Below are positions 8,509 to 45,759 of a stretch of 45,759 nucleotides of DNA, one piece after another. Position numbers and translations under genes: made by a program. The notes beneath the pieces were generated by a model. The model saw nothing but the letters and a program-made list of their open reading frames with translations. It did not search any database and was not told the DNA's origin. The first letter of the stretch is position 1. The number at the start of each line of letters is the position of its first letter. The DNA comes from an uncultured Ruminococcus sp. (GTDB lineage Bacteria > Bacillota > Clostridia > RUG12999): positions 1 to 45,759 of the forward strand of contig CACZWD010000015.1 in assembly GCA_902784805.1 (NCBI GenBank), given 5' to 3'.

Positions 8509-10608
8509 TTATACAAGAAGTGTAAACTCATCTGTAAGCTTTGTCCATTTCTCATATACATCGCTTTCCGCTTTTTCGTAATCATGCGGATTTGTTGCTT
8601 CAAGAATTTCGTAATAATACCAGCTTCCTTCAACATTATCGGGCCACTGTTTAGCATCATCAAGAAGTCCGTCAGCGCCTACACGGCGGTCAAGAAGTCT
8701 GTTGGTTATTGCAATTGCCTCTGCTCTTGTTATAAGTGCGTCAGGTCTGAATGTACCGTCTTCATAACCGCTTATCCAACCATTTGCCATAGCTGTAAGA
8801 ATCCTCTCTTCTGCCCAGTGTCCGGCTATATCACTGTATGTTCCGGAAATTGCATTTGTTTTTGTTCCAAGTGATGAAGCTATAGTAACAAACTCTGCTC
8901 TTGTTATATAGTTGCCGGGTCTGAACGAACCATCCTCATAACCTCTTACAAAGTTACCCTTTGCCATTGTTGATATAGCTCTGTCTGACCATCTTTCCGC
9001 TTCAACGTCGGTAAAGCTGTTTTCTGTTGTAAGAATTGTGTTGCGGAACTCATCATTAAGAAGTCGATAGAATATTACTGTTACCTCTTCACGCGTGATG
9101 TTAGCTTCAGGTCTTACATTACCGTCAGGATATCCTATAATATACGCAACGTGGTCTCCGGAGTTAAGAACTTCGGGAGCACTATATTTTACATATTTAC
9201 CATATACGGTAGTGTCTGCCGTAACAGTAATCTTATTGTCAACCTTTATTGTCATTTCGGGGTCTTTATACCAACCGTCAAATGCGTAACCTTCTTTTGT
9301 TGGTACCTTAACATCTCCGAAGCTCAAAGTAAACGGCGATTTTCCTTCTTTAGCTTTTACAACGCCTTCTTCACCGTCAACAACAAAGTTTACGGAAACT
9401 GTTCTTGAAGAACCTCCGCCACCAGTTGTTTCACGTGCAAATACCGCATAAAGCACTGTATCATCATCAAATGTTTGTTCTCCCGTTATAACAGAGCCGT
9501 CCGGGGTTTTAGACCAGCCTTTAAATCTATAACCATCCTTCTGACCAGGAATAGTATCATAATCATCAAGGTTAACAATAACTTCGCCTTCGCCATACTT
9601 CGGAGGGAATACACCGGTATAACCTGTACCGTCCTTTGCGGGATCATCAATATATTTACCATCTATAACAAATATTACTTTTTTAACTCCGTCTTTTCTA
9701 AGCTCATATGTTGCGCTTATTTTTCCTTTTTTAACAGAATCAATTTCGTATTCCGGCTTATAATTGGCAAGCTCATCTTCTCCGCCGGCTTTCTGAACGG
9801 CTTCATATTTTGTTGTACGCTTAACATCACTAGAAACACTGTACTCTGTCTTTCCACTAAAATATCCATAAACTGTGCCAAACACATAACCGTTTGCTGC
9901 TATATCCGCGCCAACATTTGCTGTAATCTTATCGGCAATAGCCATTTCAAGCGTAATATCAGAAAGATATTCTTCATAGCTACCTGCTGCGTATAAACCG
10001 TAAAGCGGACTTGCTGCATCAATATTTACAAGATCGCCTGCTTTAAGAGCCGTGCCACCTATCGGTGATTTTACATAAACGGTTATTGTAAGTGTGTTTG
10101 TTGCCGCATCCCAATCACGAGATACAACGCCTGTTTCCGGATTTACCTCTGTATATACCTTTGCAGACTCGGCGTTTGCAAAAGAAAATCCGTACATATC
10201 CGTTGCAGGATTCTTTATACTATCGCTTACAAGACCACCCAATTCGGCAGGGAAAACAATTTTAATTTCAAATGAACCCTTAACATCAACGCTGTATAAA
10301 TCAGCATCAGTAAAGCCTAAAGGTTTATAATACTGGTTTGCATAATTAATATATGCCTCAAACTCATCTCTCACAGGCTTCATATCTATTTGAGCCTTGT
10401 AAATAAAATCTGCAGTTGCGGCTGCGTAGTTTGTATCAAGATGATACTCCTCAAACGCACCCTTATCAACACGCTGAATCTGAATGTCTGTCGGCACTTC
10501 AACCGTTTCTTTAAGGCTGATTGCAGGATCAGCATCCGCAAAAGCAACCGTCAGAACACTCATGAGCATAGCTGTTACGATAAAAATCGAAAACAATGTT
10601 TTTTTCAT
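8509..10608 (-). CDS. Secreted cell-wall protein with InlB-type B-repeats and three SLH domains
   Basis: 699 residues. A Sec signal peptide (residues 1-26, MKKTLFSIFIVTAM... ending AFADA) precedes a beta-rich N-terminal region of about 300 residues that I do not recognise. Two Listeria/Bacteroides-type repeats follow, recognisable by GYRFKGWSKTPDG and GYAFDGWYKDPEM and separated by a Gly/Ser stretch. Three SLH motifs then anchor the protein to cell-wall polymer (IIGYPDGNVRPEANITRE, VRGYEDGSFRPGNYITRAE, ISGYEDGTFRPDALITRAE). The gene is a single unit with its own consensus promoter and terminator, and the ATG at 10608 follows AGGAG. It is probably an abundant envelope protein; its ligand is unknown. 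Confidence 0.9.
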   Translation of the reverse strand: MKKTLFSIFIVTAMLMSVLTVAFADADPAISLKETVEVPTDIQIQRVDKGAFEEYHLDTNYAAATADFIYKAQIDMKPVRDEFEAYINYANQYYKPLGFTDADLYSVDVKGSFEIKIVFPAELGGLVSDSIKNPATDMYGFSFANAESAKVYTEVNPETGVVSRDWDAATNTLTITVYVKSPIGGTALKAGDLVNIDAASPLYGLYAAGSYEEYLSDITLEMAIADKITANVGADIAANGYVFGTVYGYFSGKTEYSVSSDVKRTTKYEAVQKAGGEDELANYKPEYEIDSVKKGKISATYELRKDGVKKVIFVIDGKYIDDPAKDGTGYTGVFPPKYGEGEVIVNLDDYDTIPGQKDGYRFKGWSKTPDGSVITGEQTFDDDTVLYAVFARETTGGGGSSRTVSVNFVVDGEEGVVKAKEGKSPFTLSFGDVKVPTKEGYAFDGWYKDPEMTIKVDNKITVTADTTVYGKYVKYSAPEVLNSGDHVAYIIGYPDGNVRPEANITREEVTVIFYRLLNDEFRNTILTTENSFTDVEAERWSDRAISTMAKGNFVRGYEDGSFRPGNYITRAEFVTIASSLGTKTNAISGTYSDIAGHWAEERILTAMANGWISGYEDGTFRPDALITRAEAIAITNRLLDRRVGADGLLDDAKQWPDNVEGSWYYYEILEATNPHDYEKAESDVYEKWTKLTDEFTLLV

Positions 10609-10661
10609 GAAACTTCTCTCCTAACACGTAAAATTTTAATAATAATTTCATAATATTTTAT

Positions 10662-17767: not shown

Positions 17768-18514
17768 ATGAGAAACTTAACTAAAATTCTCGCATCGGTA
17801 GTCGCACTTTCAATAATCCTGGGTGTTGCAGCTTTCGCTAAATCATACCCTGATGTTGACAGTAATGCCGACTACGCAGAAGCAGTAAACGCTATCAGTG
17901 ACCTCGGCATTGCAAAAGGCGATGAAAACGGTGACTTTAATGCTGATAAAACACTCACAAGAGCAGAAGGCACAGCCTTCGTACTCAGACTTTTAGGTCT
18001 TGAGGAAGCCGCGAAAGCAGCAGCCGGCACAGCCACGGATTTTTCTGACGTGCCGCCCGACCACTGGGCGGCAGGTTATGTATCGGTTGCGGCGGCAAAC
18101 GGCATTGTTTCCGGTATGGGCAAAGGCACATTTGTTCCAAACGGTGAACTCACTTACGCACAGATAGTAAGAATGCTTGTTTCGGCTCTTGGTTATGAAT
18201 CGCTTGCGTCGGAGCTTGGTGAATGGCCCGGCAACTATATGTCAGCGGCAAGCAAAATCAAGCTTACGGTCGGTATCACGGGCAGCGCCAATGACGCTGT
18301 AACAAGAGGAACAACAGCAAGACTTATCTATGCGGCTCTGACAATTACCAAAACAGAAAGGAGCGATACAGACGTTTCGGGCGGCAATGTTCCCGCAAGC
18401 GTTGATTTTGACGGTAAAATGTTTACGGTATCAAAGGTGAGGTTCAGTATATGGCTTCCGATGACAAAGACATTACAAAGCTTTACGGCATTAAGCTTAG
18501 CGGCGCCGCAATAG
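17768..18514 (+). CDS. SLH-domain surface protein, 5' part of a frameshifted gene
   Basis: 248 residues before a premature stop. A signal peptide (residues 1-24, ending AAFA) is followed by two clear SLH motifs (residues about 27-75 with KGDENGDFNADKTLTRAE, and 92-140 with VSGMGKGTFVPNGELTYAQ) and a weaker third up to about residue 195. After FDGKMFTVSKV (18404-18438) the frame shifts, and the last 25 or so residues are out of frame. Comparison with the two downstream repeat copies shows that about 61 bases are missing at 18436-18441. A truncated wall-bound protein with the SLH region only may still be made. Confidence 0.85.
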   Translation: MRNLTKILASVVALSIILGVAAFAKSYPDVDSNADYAEAVNAISDLGIAKGDENGDFNADKTLTRAEGTAFVLRLLGLEEAAKAAAGTATDFSDVPPDHWAAGYVSVAAANGIVSGMGKGTFVPNGELTYAQIVRMLVSALGYESLASELGEWPGNYMSAASKIKLTVGITGSANDAVTRGTTARLIYAALTITKTERSDTDVSGGNVPASVDFDGKMFTVSKVRFSIWLPMTKTLQSFTALSLAAPQ

Positions 18515-42698: not shown

Positions 42699-43094
42699 AT
42701 GGCAGCAATTCAATATTACGGAACAGGAAGAAGAAAAAGTTCTGTCGCTCGTGTAAGACTTATTCCCGGAAAAGGTAACATTACAATAAATGACAGAACA
42801 ATAGATGATTATTTCGGTCTTGAAACCCTTAAGGTTATTGTTAAACAGCCTCTTGCCGCAACAGGCACCGAAGGCAAGTTTGACGTAGTTGTTAAGGTTC
42901 ATGGCGGCGGTTTCACAGGTCAGGCAGGCGCAATCCGTCACGGTATTGCGAGAGCGCTTCTTAATGTAGATGAAGAAAGCTACAGATTAGTGCTTAAAAA
43001 AGCCGGCTATCTCACTCGTGACCCTCGTATGAAGGAAAGAAAGAAGTACGGCTTGAAGGCAGCTCGTCGTGCACCGCAGTTCTCAAAGAGATAA
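42699..43094 (+). CDS. rpsI: 30S ribosomal protein S9
   Basis: 131 residues. [19 protein letters not shown] at the start, [19 protein letters not shown] in the middle, and the conserved C-terminal tail ending APQFSKR, which reaches the P-site tRNA. AGGAGG precedes the ATG. The gene is intact. The mobile-looking DNA begins within about 80 bases of its stop codon, after the operon terminator. Confidence 0.97.
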
Positions 43095-43114
43095 AAATAC
43101 AATTACAAATGCTC

Positions 43115-43369: not shown

Positions 43370-43433
43370 AAAACAAAAATAGTTTTATAGTTTTTTCATA
43401 ATAATTTTTATGAATCACGAAAGGAGGGGTTGT

Positions 43434-44333
43434 ATGTACCAAGTATTAAACTACGATGATAAAGACACCAAAAGAAAAAAGCATCAGCCTACACTTATGC
43501 AAATTGAATTTAGCACCTTGAAAAAAATCATATTTACATTTGTTATTATGTCTGTGCTAATAGCATTCGTGTATTTTTATAATATCCCCGATCCTAATAT
43601 GATTCTTATTGCCGGATTGGTTTTGTGTTCTGCTGTTTTCGGATACGGTGGTGGAATTACGGCAGGCGTAATTATGCTTTTATATACCCTGTTTTTCTTT
43701 TCGACGGAACACAGCTTTATCCATTTTACAGAACAGAACATACAAAAGGTGTTTGTGACTATTATTGGAATTGTAGCTGATTTGCTTTTGGTATGTTCCT
43801 TAAAGCGTGAAGAAATAAAGGCGTTTAAAGATGTAAAATTTCTTACCGAAAAATTGCAGAACGAAAATGAAAATCTGCAAATCATTTCAATGCAAGATGT
43901 TTTAACAGGACTTCAAAACAGACTTGCACTACGACGGGACTATGATTCGTATAAAAACCGTGAGCTTACAGTTATGATGCTTGATTTAGATAATTTCAAA
44001 ATAATCAATGATACTTACGGTCATGCTGAGGGCGACAAAGTTTTGAAAAAAACAGGTGAGCTTCTTGCAAAAACTTTTGGCAAAGATTATTGCTACCGAT
44101 ACGGCGGTGATGAATTTCTTGTCCTCTGCCCTGACTTGTCAGAAAGTGAATTTATAGAAAAGCTCAACGACATGATGAAATCAAAACCAAGTTTTAATAT
44201 AAATGAAATATCTGTAAATGTAGAGTTTTCATTCGGTTATGTTCACGATTTAGTGAGAGATATAGAAGATTTAAGACAGTTCTTTTCTCTTGCGGATCAG
44301 CGTATGTATGCGGCAAAAAATGCCAAGCAATAA
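43434..44333 (+). CDS. Membrane-bound diguanylate cyclase (GGDEF)
   Basis: 299 residues. Four hydrophobic segments (about 28-115, starting IIFTFVIMSVLIAFVYFY) form a membrane sensor module, then a short coiled coil (EKLQNENENL) and a GGDEF domain: DVLTGLQNR, LDLDNFKIINDTYGHAEGD and the exact active-site YRYGGDEFLVL. All catalytic residues are present, so c-di-GMP synthesis is expected. The inhibitory site RxxD five residues before GGDEF is not kept (FGKD), so product feedback may be absent. AAAGGAGGGG precedes ATG 43434. It has its own terminator and is probably cargo of the element. Confidence 0.9.
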   Translation: MYQVLNYDDKDTKRKKHQPTLMQIEFSTLKKIIFTFVIMSVLIAFVYFYNIPDPNMILIAGLVLCSAVFGYGGGITAGVIMLLYTLFFFSTEHSFIHFTEQNIQKVFVTIIGIVADLLLVCSLKREEIKAFKDVKFLTEKLQNENENLQIISMQDVLTGLQNRLALRRDYDSYKNRELTVMMLDLDNFKIINDTYGHAEGDKVLKKTGELLAKTFGKDYCYRYGGDEFLVLCPDLSESEFIEKLNDMMKSKPSFNINEISVNVEFSFGYVHDLVRDIEDLRQFFSLADQRMYAAKNAKQ

Positions 44334-44363: not shown

Positions 44364-44412
44364 AAGCGTGTTTACTTTGCTCTTTTTAAGAGATAGTGAA
44401 CACGCTTTTTTT
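44364..44412 (+). terminator. Terminator after the diguanylate cyclase gene
   Basis: AAGCGTGTT...AACACGCTT outer stem with an inner CTCTT/AAGAG hairpin, followed by T-rich tail to 44412. Confidence 0.85.
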
Positions 44413-44447: not shown

Positions 44448-44633
44448 ATGCTTTACAACAAATGCGATGACCGTAATAACCAAAGCGGTTGCTATGATCC
44501 GACTGCGTACAACGCATTAAGAAAAATTAAAAAGGATGAACGCCGGGCGCTCATTCAAAAGATGAATGCCCTTGCCAATCAAAACGGTTATCAGATTATC
44601 AGTATTATCAAACTTCGTGAAATAGACTTTTAA
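44448..44633 (+). CDS. Small protein upstream of the replication initiator
   Basis: 61 residues (MLYNKCDDRNNQSGCYDPTA...). The middle is a charged helix (NALRKIKKDERRALIQKMNAL), and the end GYQIISIIKLREIDF is beta-like. Similar short proteins sit directly before the initiator in Clostridial conjugative elements; no function is known to me. GAAAGGAAGG precedes the ATG. The initiator follows after 35 bases. Confidence 0.7.
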   Translation: MLYNKCDDRNNQSGCYDPTAYNALRKIKKDERRALIQKMNALANQNGYQIISIIKLREIDF

Positions 44634-44668: not shown

Positions 44669-45523
44669 TTGTATGAATATTTTTACGGAGAGGAATCAAA
44701 TCAGTTTTCGTTTTACAGAATACCAAAAATACTGTTTACTGATGAAGCTTTTAAAAGTATATCACCGGAGGCAAAAATTCTGTACGGCATACTGCTTGAC
44801 AGAATGAGCCTGTCACAGAAAAACGGTTGGACAGACGATTGCGGCAGAGTGTATATAGTTTTTACCGTTGAAGAAATAATGTCCTCTCTCGGCTGTCAGA
44901 ACCAAAAGGCAAACAAACTTATGTATGAGCTTGAGAAAAAGTGTGGTCTTATTGAACGCAAACGGCAGGGCTTGGGAAAACCAAATCTCATATATGTTAA
45001 GAATTTTATTGATAATTCAAAATCACACATCAAGAAATGTGAAAATCACACTTCTGGAAATGTGAAAAACACACATCAAGAAATGTTAAAATCACACACT
45101 AATAATACTGATATAAATAATACTGATTTTAGTGATACTGATAATCCTTTCCTTTCGGAAACGGATGAGCGATTGAGCTATCGTGACATCATCAAAGAAA
45201 ATATTGATTATGACATTCTTATTAAAAATTATCCGTTTGAAACAGATACCATAAATGAGATGCTTGAACTGATTTTAGATACCGTTTGCTCTAAAAGACA
45301 GTATATACGAATAGCCGGAGATGATAAGCCACATTCGGTTGTAAAAAGTCAACTGCTCAAAATTACAAGTGAACATATATCGTACTGTATTGACTGTTTG
45401 AAAGAAAGTACAGCAGATGTCAAAAATATCCGTCAATACATACTTGCCACTTTATATAATGCTCCACTTACCATTTCCAATTATTACGGAATGAAAGTAA
45501 GACACGATATGGCAACAGGATAG
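44669..45523 (+). CDS. RepA_N-type replication initiator with DUF6017-like C-terminus
   Basis: 284 residues. The N-terminal winged-helix domain (about 1-115) has the family pattern: FYRIPKILFTDEAFKSISPE, AKILYGILLDRMSLS, RVYIVFTVEEIMSSLGCQ and LIERKRQGLGKPNLIYVKNF. A low-complexity linker (about 117-165, rich in N, T, H, D) is encoded by 23-bp tandem repeats. The C-terminal domain (YRDIIKENIDYDILIKNYPF...RIAGDDKPHSVVKSQ...LATLYNAP) is the DUF6017-like part found in Tn1549-type elements. It probably starts replication of the excised circle. The start is TTG 44669, 8 bases behind AAGGAGG; the nearby ATG at 44673 is out of frame. Confidence 0.87.
   Translation: MYEYFYGEESNQFSFYRIPKILFTDEAFKSISPEAKILYGILLDRMSLSQKNGWTDDCGRVYIVFTVEEIMSSLGCQNQKANKLMYELEKKCGLIERKRQGLGKPNLIYVKNFIDNSKSHIKKCENHTSGNVKNTHQEMLKSHTNNTDINNTDFSDTDNPFLSETDERLSYRDIIKENIDYDILIKNYPFETDTINEMLELILDTVCSKRQYIRIAGDDKPHSVVKSQLLKITSEHISYCIDCLKESTADVKNIRQYILATLYNAPLTISNYYGMKVRHDMATG
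45023..45091 (+). repeat. Three tandem 23-bp iteron-like repeats inside the initiator gene
   Basis: Units 45023-45045, 45046-45068 and 45069-45091, consensus TCACACATCAAGAAATGTG plus AAAA, with two to three mismatches each; a partial fourth begins at 45092. The period of 23 shifts the reading frame each time, so the encoded peptide is not repeated. The DNA itself is what is conserved. Confidence 0.85.
45104..45142 (+). repeat. AT-rich 15-bp repeats next to the iterons
   Basis: AATACTGAT at 45104 and 45119 and GATACTGAT at 45134, spaced by 15, inside a very AT-rich stretch. It could serve as the unwinding region of an origin, or simply encode the NTD-rich linker since 15 keeps the frame. Confidence 0.6.
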
Positions 45524-45535
45524 GAGGTGAAAAAT

Positions 45536-45759
45536 ATGCCAAAGAATAAAGAATTTGATCCTACAAAAATATTAGAAGTTAAACTTTCAGAATTGCATCC
45601 GTTCAAAAATCATCCGTTTAAGGTTTTAGACGATGATTTAATGCAGCAGACAGTAGATAGCATCCCATCTTCGCCCGGAAGCATTACATCCAAAATAACC
45701 AGCTCCGGAACTTGCTTTTTAATTGCAGACCAAAATTCTTCGTCATTTTCAAATCCTTT
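45536..45759 (+). CDS. ParB-like protein, N-terminus only, disrupted near codon 43
   Basis: The ATG at 45536 behind AGGAGGTGA opens a frame whose first 43 residues match ParB/Spo0J N-termini (LSELHPFKNHPFKVLDDDLM, QQTVDSI). In homologues this continues with KEYGVLVP-like sequence. Here, after SI (about 45664), the frame reads PSSPGSITSKITSSGT, which is not ParB and is instead the reverse complement of a response-regulator domain. The frame runs open to the window edge. The first part is convincing; everything after about 45661 should not be annotated as ParB. Confidence 0.75.
   Translation, partial: MPKNKEFDPTKILEVKLSELHPFKNHPFKVLDDDLMQQTVDSIPSSPGSITSKITSSGTCFLIADQNSSSFSNP
45661..45759 (-). 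pseudogene. Response-regulator receiver-domain fragment in reverse orientation
   Basis: On the minus strand 33 codons read KGFENDEEFWSAIKKQ then VPELVILDVMLPGEDGM. This is the phospho-acceptor strand (Asp in LVILDVMLPG) of an OmpR-type receiver domain. It enters from the right edge and stops at the ParB junction, where the expected next helix is missing. It is either part of a real gene cut by a rearrangement, or foreign sequence joined in assembly. Confidence 0.7.

Follow-up and report, generated by a model that had tools for sequence, protein, structure and literature searches.

The window, i.e., the whole 45,759-nucleotide stretch that was analysed, is an entire contig (C15), one of 66 in its genome, and carries a RepA_N initiator gene (rep) at its right end. 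The features considered here are as follows.

42699-43094: rpsI.
43074-43097, plus strand: attL core CCGCAGTTCTCAAAGAGATAAAAA at the rpsI 3' end, the left boundary of an integrated element (identity jump; attR copy).
43410-44333, plus strand: GGDEF (diguanylate cyclase) gene at the left end of the element, between rpsI and rep (Pfam PF00990, 109 bits).
44448-44633, plus strand: 61-aa open reading frame (ORF) upstream of rep, found by ORF reading and outside any Pfam family.
44598-44607, minus strand: AT-block motif TAATACTGAT, repeated exactly but in inverted orientation within the 61-aa ORF that precedes rep, possibly by chance.
44669-45523, plus strand: rep, RepA_N initiator of 284 aa with a TTG start (Pfam).
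44894-44908, plus strand: recognition-helix motif of rep, codons 76-80 (C Q N Q K), in which Q79 tracks the inner half-site bases.
45019-45029, plus strand: putative upstream half iteron AAAATCACACA (TRF, 3.5 copies).
45030-45052, plus strand: putative iteron 1, TCAAGA AATGTG AAAAT CACACT (TRF, sequence reading).
45053-45075, plus strand: putative iteron 2, TCTGGA AATGTG AAAAA CACACA (TRF, sequence reading).
45076-45098, plus strand: putative iteron 3, TCAAGA AATGTT AAAAT CACACA (TRF, sequence reading).
45101-45143, plus strand: AT-rich repeats of 15 bp, AATAATACTGAT..., a candidate for strand opening or for the binding of a host factor (TRF, pSK41 identity, codon bias).
45536-45663, plus strand: start of parB, cut by the contig end; relatives match only to 45663.

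The N-terminal domain (NTD) of the initiator belongs to Pfam family RepA_N (PF06970, aa 14-88, 104 bits vs. a cut-off of 30) and matches the RepA NTDs 4pta, 4pt7, 4pql, and 5kbj in the PDB (E about 1e-26), and its C-terminal domain (CTD) is DUF6017 (PF19481, aa 170-284, 157 bits). The linker between these two domains holds the 23-bp units (45019-45098) and, right behind them, the 15-bp AT-rich repeats, just where the sequence-only reading had placed them. The rep ORF is intact, and a 99% identical copy was found in another host. Homologues of the 61-aa ORF also lie upstream of rep in four relatives (L133, L128, L134, and L013), and the inverted motif copy within it is present in near-identical elements, not clearly in L013. 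With regard to antisense-RNA control upstream of rep, no Rfam family reached its cut-off and promoter matches did not exceed those in shuffled sequences; no DnaA box was found near the rep gene. An intact ParB_N gene follows rep in one relative (L148). The final 96 bases of the contig (45664-45759) have no match in any relative; the matches all end at 45663, within parB. On the minus strand these bases resemble part of a response regulator, they have no second copy elsewhere in their own genome, and a chimeric contig end or a rearrangement is their probable cause.

The element is integrated at the 3' end of rpsI, with both attL and attR recognisable. Specifically, identity to three related sequences (L002, L003, and L004) rises from 55-77% over rplM-rpsI to 98-100% from about 43090, and a second rpsI 3' end with the exact 24-bp core lies in the same genome (attR; G000:C9, ~18274-18320). 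A duplicate rpsI 3' end was also found at the far end of a related element in the genome of L003, where two recombinase- or integrase-like genes (named from their sequence, not Pfam) lie next to attR. The GGDEF gene is 97-100% identical in relatives from unrelated hosts. After it, at 44364-44407, an inverted repeat of 13 bp with a T run behind it looks terminator-like by eye and is absent from the scan output. The window holds only the left 2.6 kb of the element. A closely related element (G017:C5; L148, L149) encodes a relaxase, a coupling protein, a VirB4-like ATPase, and TrbL/VirB6, in the order rep, parB, DUF3801, coupling protein, TrbL, VirB4-like, NlpC/P60, CD1107-like, topoisomerase, and relaxase. 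By these conjugation genes, read in the relative, the window element is classed as an integrative and conjugative element (ICE) of the Tn1549 type. RepA_N genes are known in such elements, and the source consulted names the ConjTn1549 and Tn5252 families and TnGBS1/2 (PMC4701971).

Tandem-repeat analysis of 45019-45098 gave a period of 23 with 3.5 copies, 84% matches, and a score of 125, the highest in the window; an array of 3.5 units is at the low end of the range, as other arrays had 4-8. The three adjacent full units are near-identical, as noted from the letters alone, although they differ pairwise by 2 to 4 bases and not by 2 to 3 as counted then. Their first bases fall in codon phases 1, 0, and 2, so that each unit is translated differently and the description of the array as out of frame holds. 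The lag-23 self-match score was 40 in the window linker vs. a maximum of 14 among 60 codon shuffles of that linker, i.e., beyond what chance would give. The units are semi-palindromic, with arms converging on a poly-A tract (AATGTG-AAAAT-CACACA). Iteron 3 has TTA (T at 45087) where the repeat consensus would give an in-frame TGA stop, and we attribute its departure at this base to that stop. Across its own genome (1.67 Mb), no further iteron site was found at 0 mismatches, and the five sites at 2 mismatches represent background.

When the rep gene was searched against a plasmid collection at the nucleotide level, it recovered staphylococcal plasmids of the pSK41 family, which aligned only over 45017-45142; viral contigs yielded no relative with the query used. 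The array and AT block share 81% DNA identity with pSK41 over 125 bp, ungapped and at the same place in rep. By segment, the NTD is 55% identical and the CTD 43%, against 79% for the iterons and 84% for the AT block; the window CTD (DUF6017) and the pSK41 CTD have no clear sequence relation (23% over the alignment). The iterons are 79% identical as DNA but 54% identical as amino acids, and their differences are spread over the codon positions (7/6/4), whereas NTD and CTD differences from a closer relative (L006) crowd at the third position. The origin of pSK41 lies centrally within rep, the location that the sequence-only reading gave for RepA_N plasmids, and the NTD binds its four Rep boxes (PMC5703833). 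A pSK41 Rep deleted for its central domain is still functional, i.e., the linker protein is dispensable (PMC5703833). The pSK41 CTD binds and recruits DnaG. By sequence, the window array is the counterpart of this experimentally established origin, which supports the proposal that an origin lies inside the initiator gene.

Similar repeats are widespread. Among 82 distinct RepA_N genes (<85% identical, mostly Clostridia), 72 had a linker repeat above all 60 codon shuffles, i.e., most of the sampled genes carry one. The best lag among those 72 was 23 in 44 genes, 46 in 8, 22 in 5, 48 in 3, and 24 in 2, which puts 52/72 at a lag of 23 or 46; the repeat sequences differ widely. Adjacent units were 69% alike as DNA and 12% alike as peptide (42 arrays), which, together with the pSK41 comparison, bears out the expectation that alignment would find the DNA kept while the peptide varies. 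The units follow a common plan (TCAAGA, a 6-bp arm, AAAAT, and the inverted arm), with grammar scores above the 99.9% point of shuffled consensuses in 31/64, where only the excess over shuffles counts because the template positions also set the register. Lactobacillales plasmids (L244-L262) carry the same A-tract dyads at a spacing of 54 or 42 bp instead of 23, and since these are multiples of three, their reading frame repeats too. We had considered the Lactobacillales at 54-bp spacing as iteron-free, which was rejected when sequence reading showed the dyads, and a universal 23-bp spacing in RepA_N was dropped for the same dyads. In reps that share the CTD and lack the RepA_N NTD, the lag was 15, 30, or 45 in 24/26; one that was tested has an HTH_36 NTD. 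The related element in L003 holds a second initiator (9772-10617), in which an HTH_36 NTD is joined to the same CTD (DUF6017) and the linker repeats are 15 bp long. On a chromosome, it mirrors the hybrid Rep of plasmid pPR9, for which the NTD and its sites are described as travelling together (PMC5703833).

Each half-site base was tested against all NTD columns. At half-site positions 4, 5, and 6 the strongest association was with column 79 (window numbering; z 8.3, 7.1, and 7.6), whose residue paired with the inner arm bases as follows: Q with TG, E with CG, K usually with C, and D usually with GG. A second set, drawn from Bacilli plasmids, phage-like contigs, and other genomes, was <85% identical to the first. 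Here the Q/E/D/G rule from the first set was right in 11/12 (permutation mean 3.0; 0/200,000 reached 11), and all residue-79 rules, N and K included, were right in 12/21 (p about 5e-6). The K79 misses all have T or S at position 80 and the bases GTA, so that the K79 rule needs residue 80; an N79 rule was dropped, with 1 clear hit of about 4. With both sets pooled, TG occurred in 20/20 Q proteins and was absent in 39/42 others. Well-supported tree branches provided 3 independent pairs only, too few for significance, and nearly all of these agree with the rule. It is also obeyed by both the window (Q79, TGTG) and pSK41 (K, TGTC). These associations suggest that residue 79 of the recognition helix matches the inner half-site bases, and this co-variation supports the NTD as the likely binder of the window iterons. 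The residue-79 rule and the constraint on the AT block detailed below go further than what our search of the open-access literature turned up.

The AT-rich repeats (period 15, 2.9 copies, score 58) raise a different question, as their period, unlike that of the 23-bp units, is a multiple of three. It is possible that they are a protein feature, an Asn/Thr/Asp-rich flexible linker outside the origin. In 55 arrays the block encodes such a peptide, with N-N-T-D-[IF] recurring, and the TACTGA-type motif sits in codon phase 2 in 73/73, so part of its conservation could be at the protein level. Synonymous codon choice points the other way, leaning to ACT, AAT, GAT, and AGT (Thr, Asn, Asp, and Ser) with no shift in ATT, ATA, TTT, and GAA (Ile, Phe, and Glu). 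ACT outnumbers ACA 101 to 10 and makes up 80% of Thr codons inside the block vs. 20% elsewhere (odds ratio 16); in GC-richer genes the counts are 27/39 in the block vs. 25/206 (odds ratio 16). The strong preference for ACT and the rarity of the equally AT-rich ACA argue that a particular DNA sequence is kept, i.e., the repeats appear to be constrained as DNA also, and we regard an exclusively protein-level role outside the origin as rather unlikely.

For the 23-bp units themselves, a decayed or neutral tandem duplication without current function would fit the frequency of repeats in disordered linkers and the presence of 3.5 units only. An in-frame duplication would have a period that is a multiple of three; 23 is not, yet a range of genes show this period with sequences that differ. 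Moreover, distant genes are most alike in their DNA exactly in the array, and the rep ORF is intact and 99% identical in another host, which makes this reading highly improbable. The repeats could instead bind RepA to control transfer or the expression of rep (by autorepression or roadblock), in an ICE without autonomous replication whose RepA_N protein was repurposed after capture. ICEs are able to spread vertically without replication of their own, and repurposing of RepA_N by conjugative elements is a speculation of Weaver et al., as quoted in PMC7145576. Against a purely regulatory or transfer role, the whole origin layout is kept, including the AT block and with pSK41-like spacing and sequence, the iterons co-vary with the recognition helix, and parB follows rep in a relative. 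In addition, TnGBS1/2, which are RepA_N ICEs, are reported in PMC4701971 to need replication for maintenance before integration. We therefore judge this role unlikely, and consider it very likely that the 23-bp units are RepA iterons and that the initiator gene carries, in its own coding sequence, the replication origin to which they belong, as in pSK41.

How such an origin might work can be outlined as follows. The half-sites (TGTG/CACA) of each unit form an inverted pair on either side of a bendable A-tract and would be bound by the winged-helix NTD from the first 112 codons, whose Q79, in the recognition helix, would face the inner bases. Which peptide the units encode in the linker would matter little, as long as the reading frame stays open. 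The 15-bp repeats may add a further DNA element to the origin, most likely for strand opening or the docking of a host replication factor. The synonymous-codon bias lends support to the sequence-only suggestion for this block, although strand opening there is a guess. The DUF6017 CTD would recruit the host primosome, as the unrelated pSK41 CTD recruits DnaG. Given the position of rep at the left end of a Tn1549-type ICE in rpsI, the origin would serve the excised circle, keeping or multiplying it before reintegration or transfer. Since the iteron sites match the proven origin of a staphylococcal resistance plasmid, the element can probably replicate on its own once excised; replication as a circle from its own origin, as proposed in the sequence-only reading, is what we infer here.

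The layout is of a known kind, and we take the array for a RepA_N origin that an ICE has retained in working order. The literature leaves open whether RepA_N genes on chromosomes still function as replicons or have been repurposed for transfer. A complete origin layout kept in an integrated element of gut Clostridia, with one carried by most sampled RepA_N genes, points to ICEs that replicate as circles, with a bearing on ICE persistence and mutual exclusion. With the residue-79 rule, iteron specificity and incompatibility could be tested through single substitutions, and the common AT motif offers a concrete target for how RepA_N origins open. In broader terms, we see about an even chance that a single origin grammar is common to the RepA_N initiators of Bacillota (arm-AAAAT-arm'-TCAAGA, with a 23-bp spacing in Clostridia and staphylococci and with the same dyads at 42/54 bp in Lactobacillales), that its specificity lies largely in one recognition-helix residue, such that incompatibility groups could be read and predicted from sequence, and that the sequence-specific AATACTGAT block, conserved in bacteria as far apart as staphylococci and gut Clostridia, serves integrated ICEs as much as plasmids as another shared part of the origin.

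Among known systems, pSK41 (Staphylococcus aureus, NC_005024) shares with the window the RepA_N NTD, an origin in the rep linker, and 23-bp boxes with inverted arms around an A-tract, followed by 15-bp GATACTGATTTTATT repeats. It differs in being a plasmid and not integrated, in its four boxes with arms TGTC/GACA and a K at the position of Q79, in its unrelated, DnaG-binding CTD, and in its antisense-RNA control upstream of rep. The pTZ2162 RepA NTD with iteron DNA (PDB 5KBJ) is a homologous winged-helix domain with a half-site that differs from that of the window; a plasmid relative with the pTZ2162 helix (L242) has arms GTTCG/CGAAC around AAAAT and E at the position of Q79. The RepA_N ICEs (ConjTn1549, Tn5252, and TnGBS1/2) likewise combine RepA_N with a partition gene on an integrated conjugative element; their descriptions, in the portions of PMC4701971 consulted, mention no in-gene iteron array, and rpsI integration and the DUF6017 CTD are features of the window element. 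The PLE satellite of Vibrio cholerae is likewise a chromosomal element with a RepA_N initiator and iterons, and it replicates once excised (PMC7145576), but its iterons lie in a non-coding region and it is a phage satellite of a Gram-negative host.
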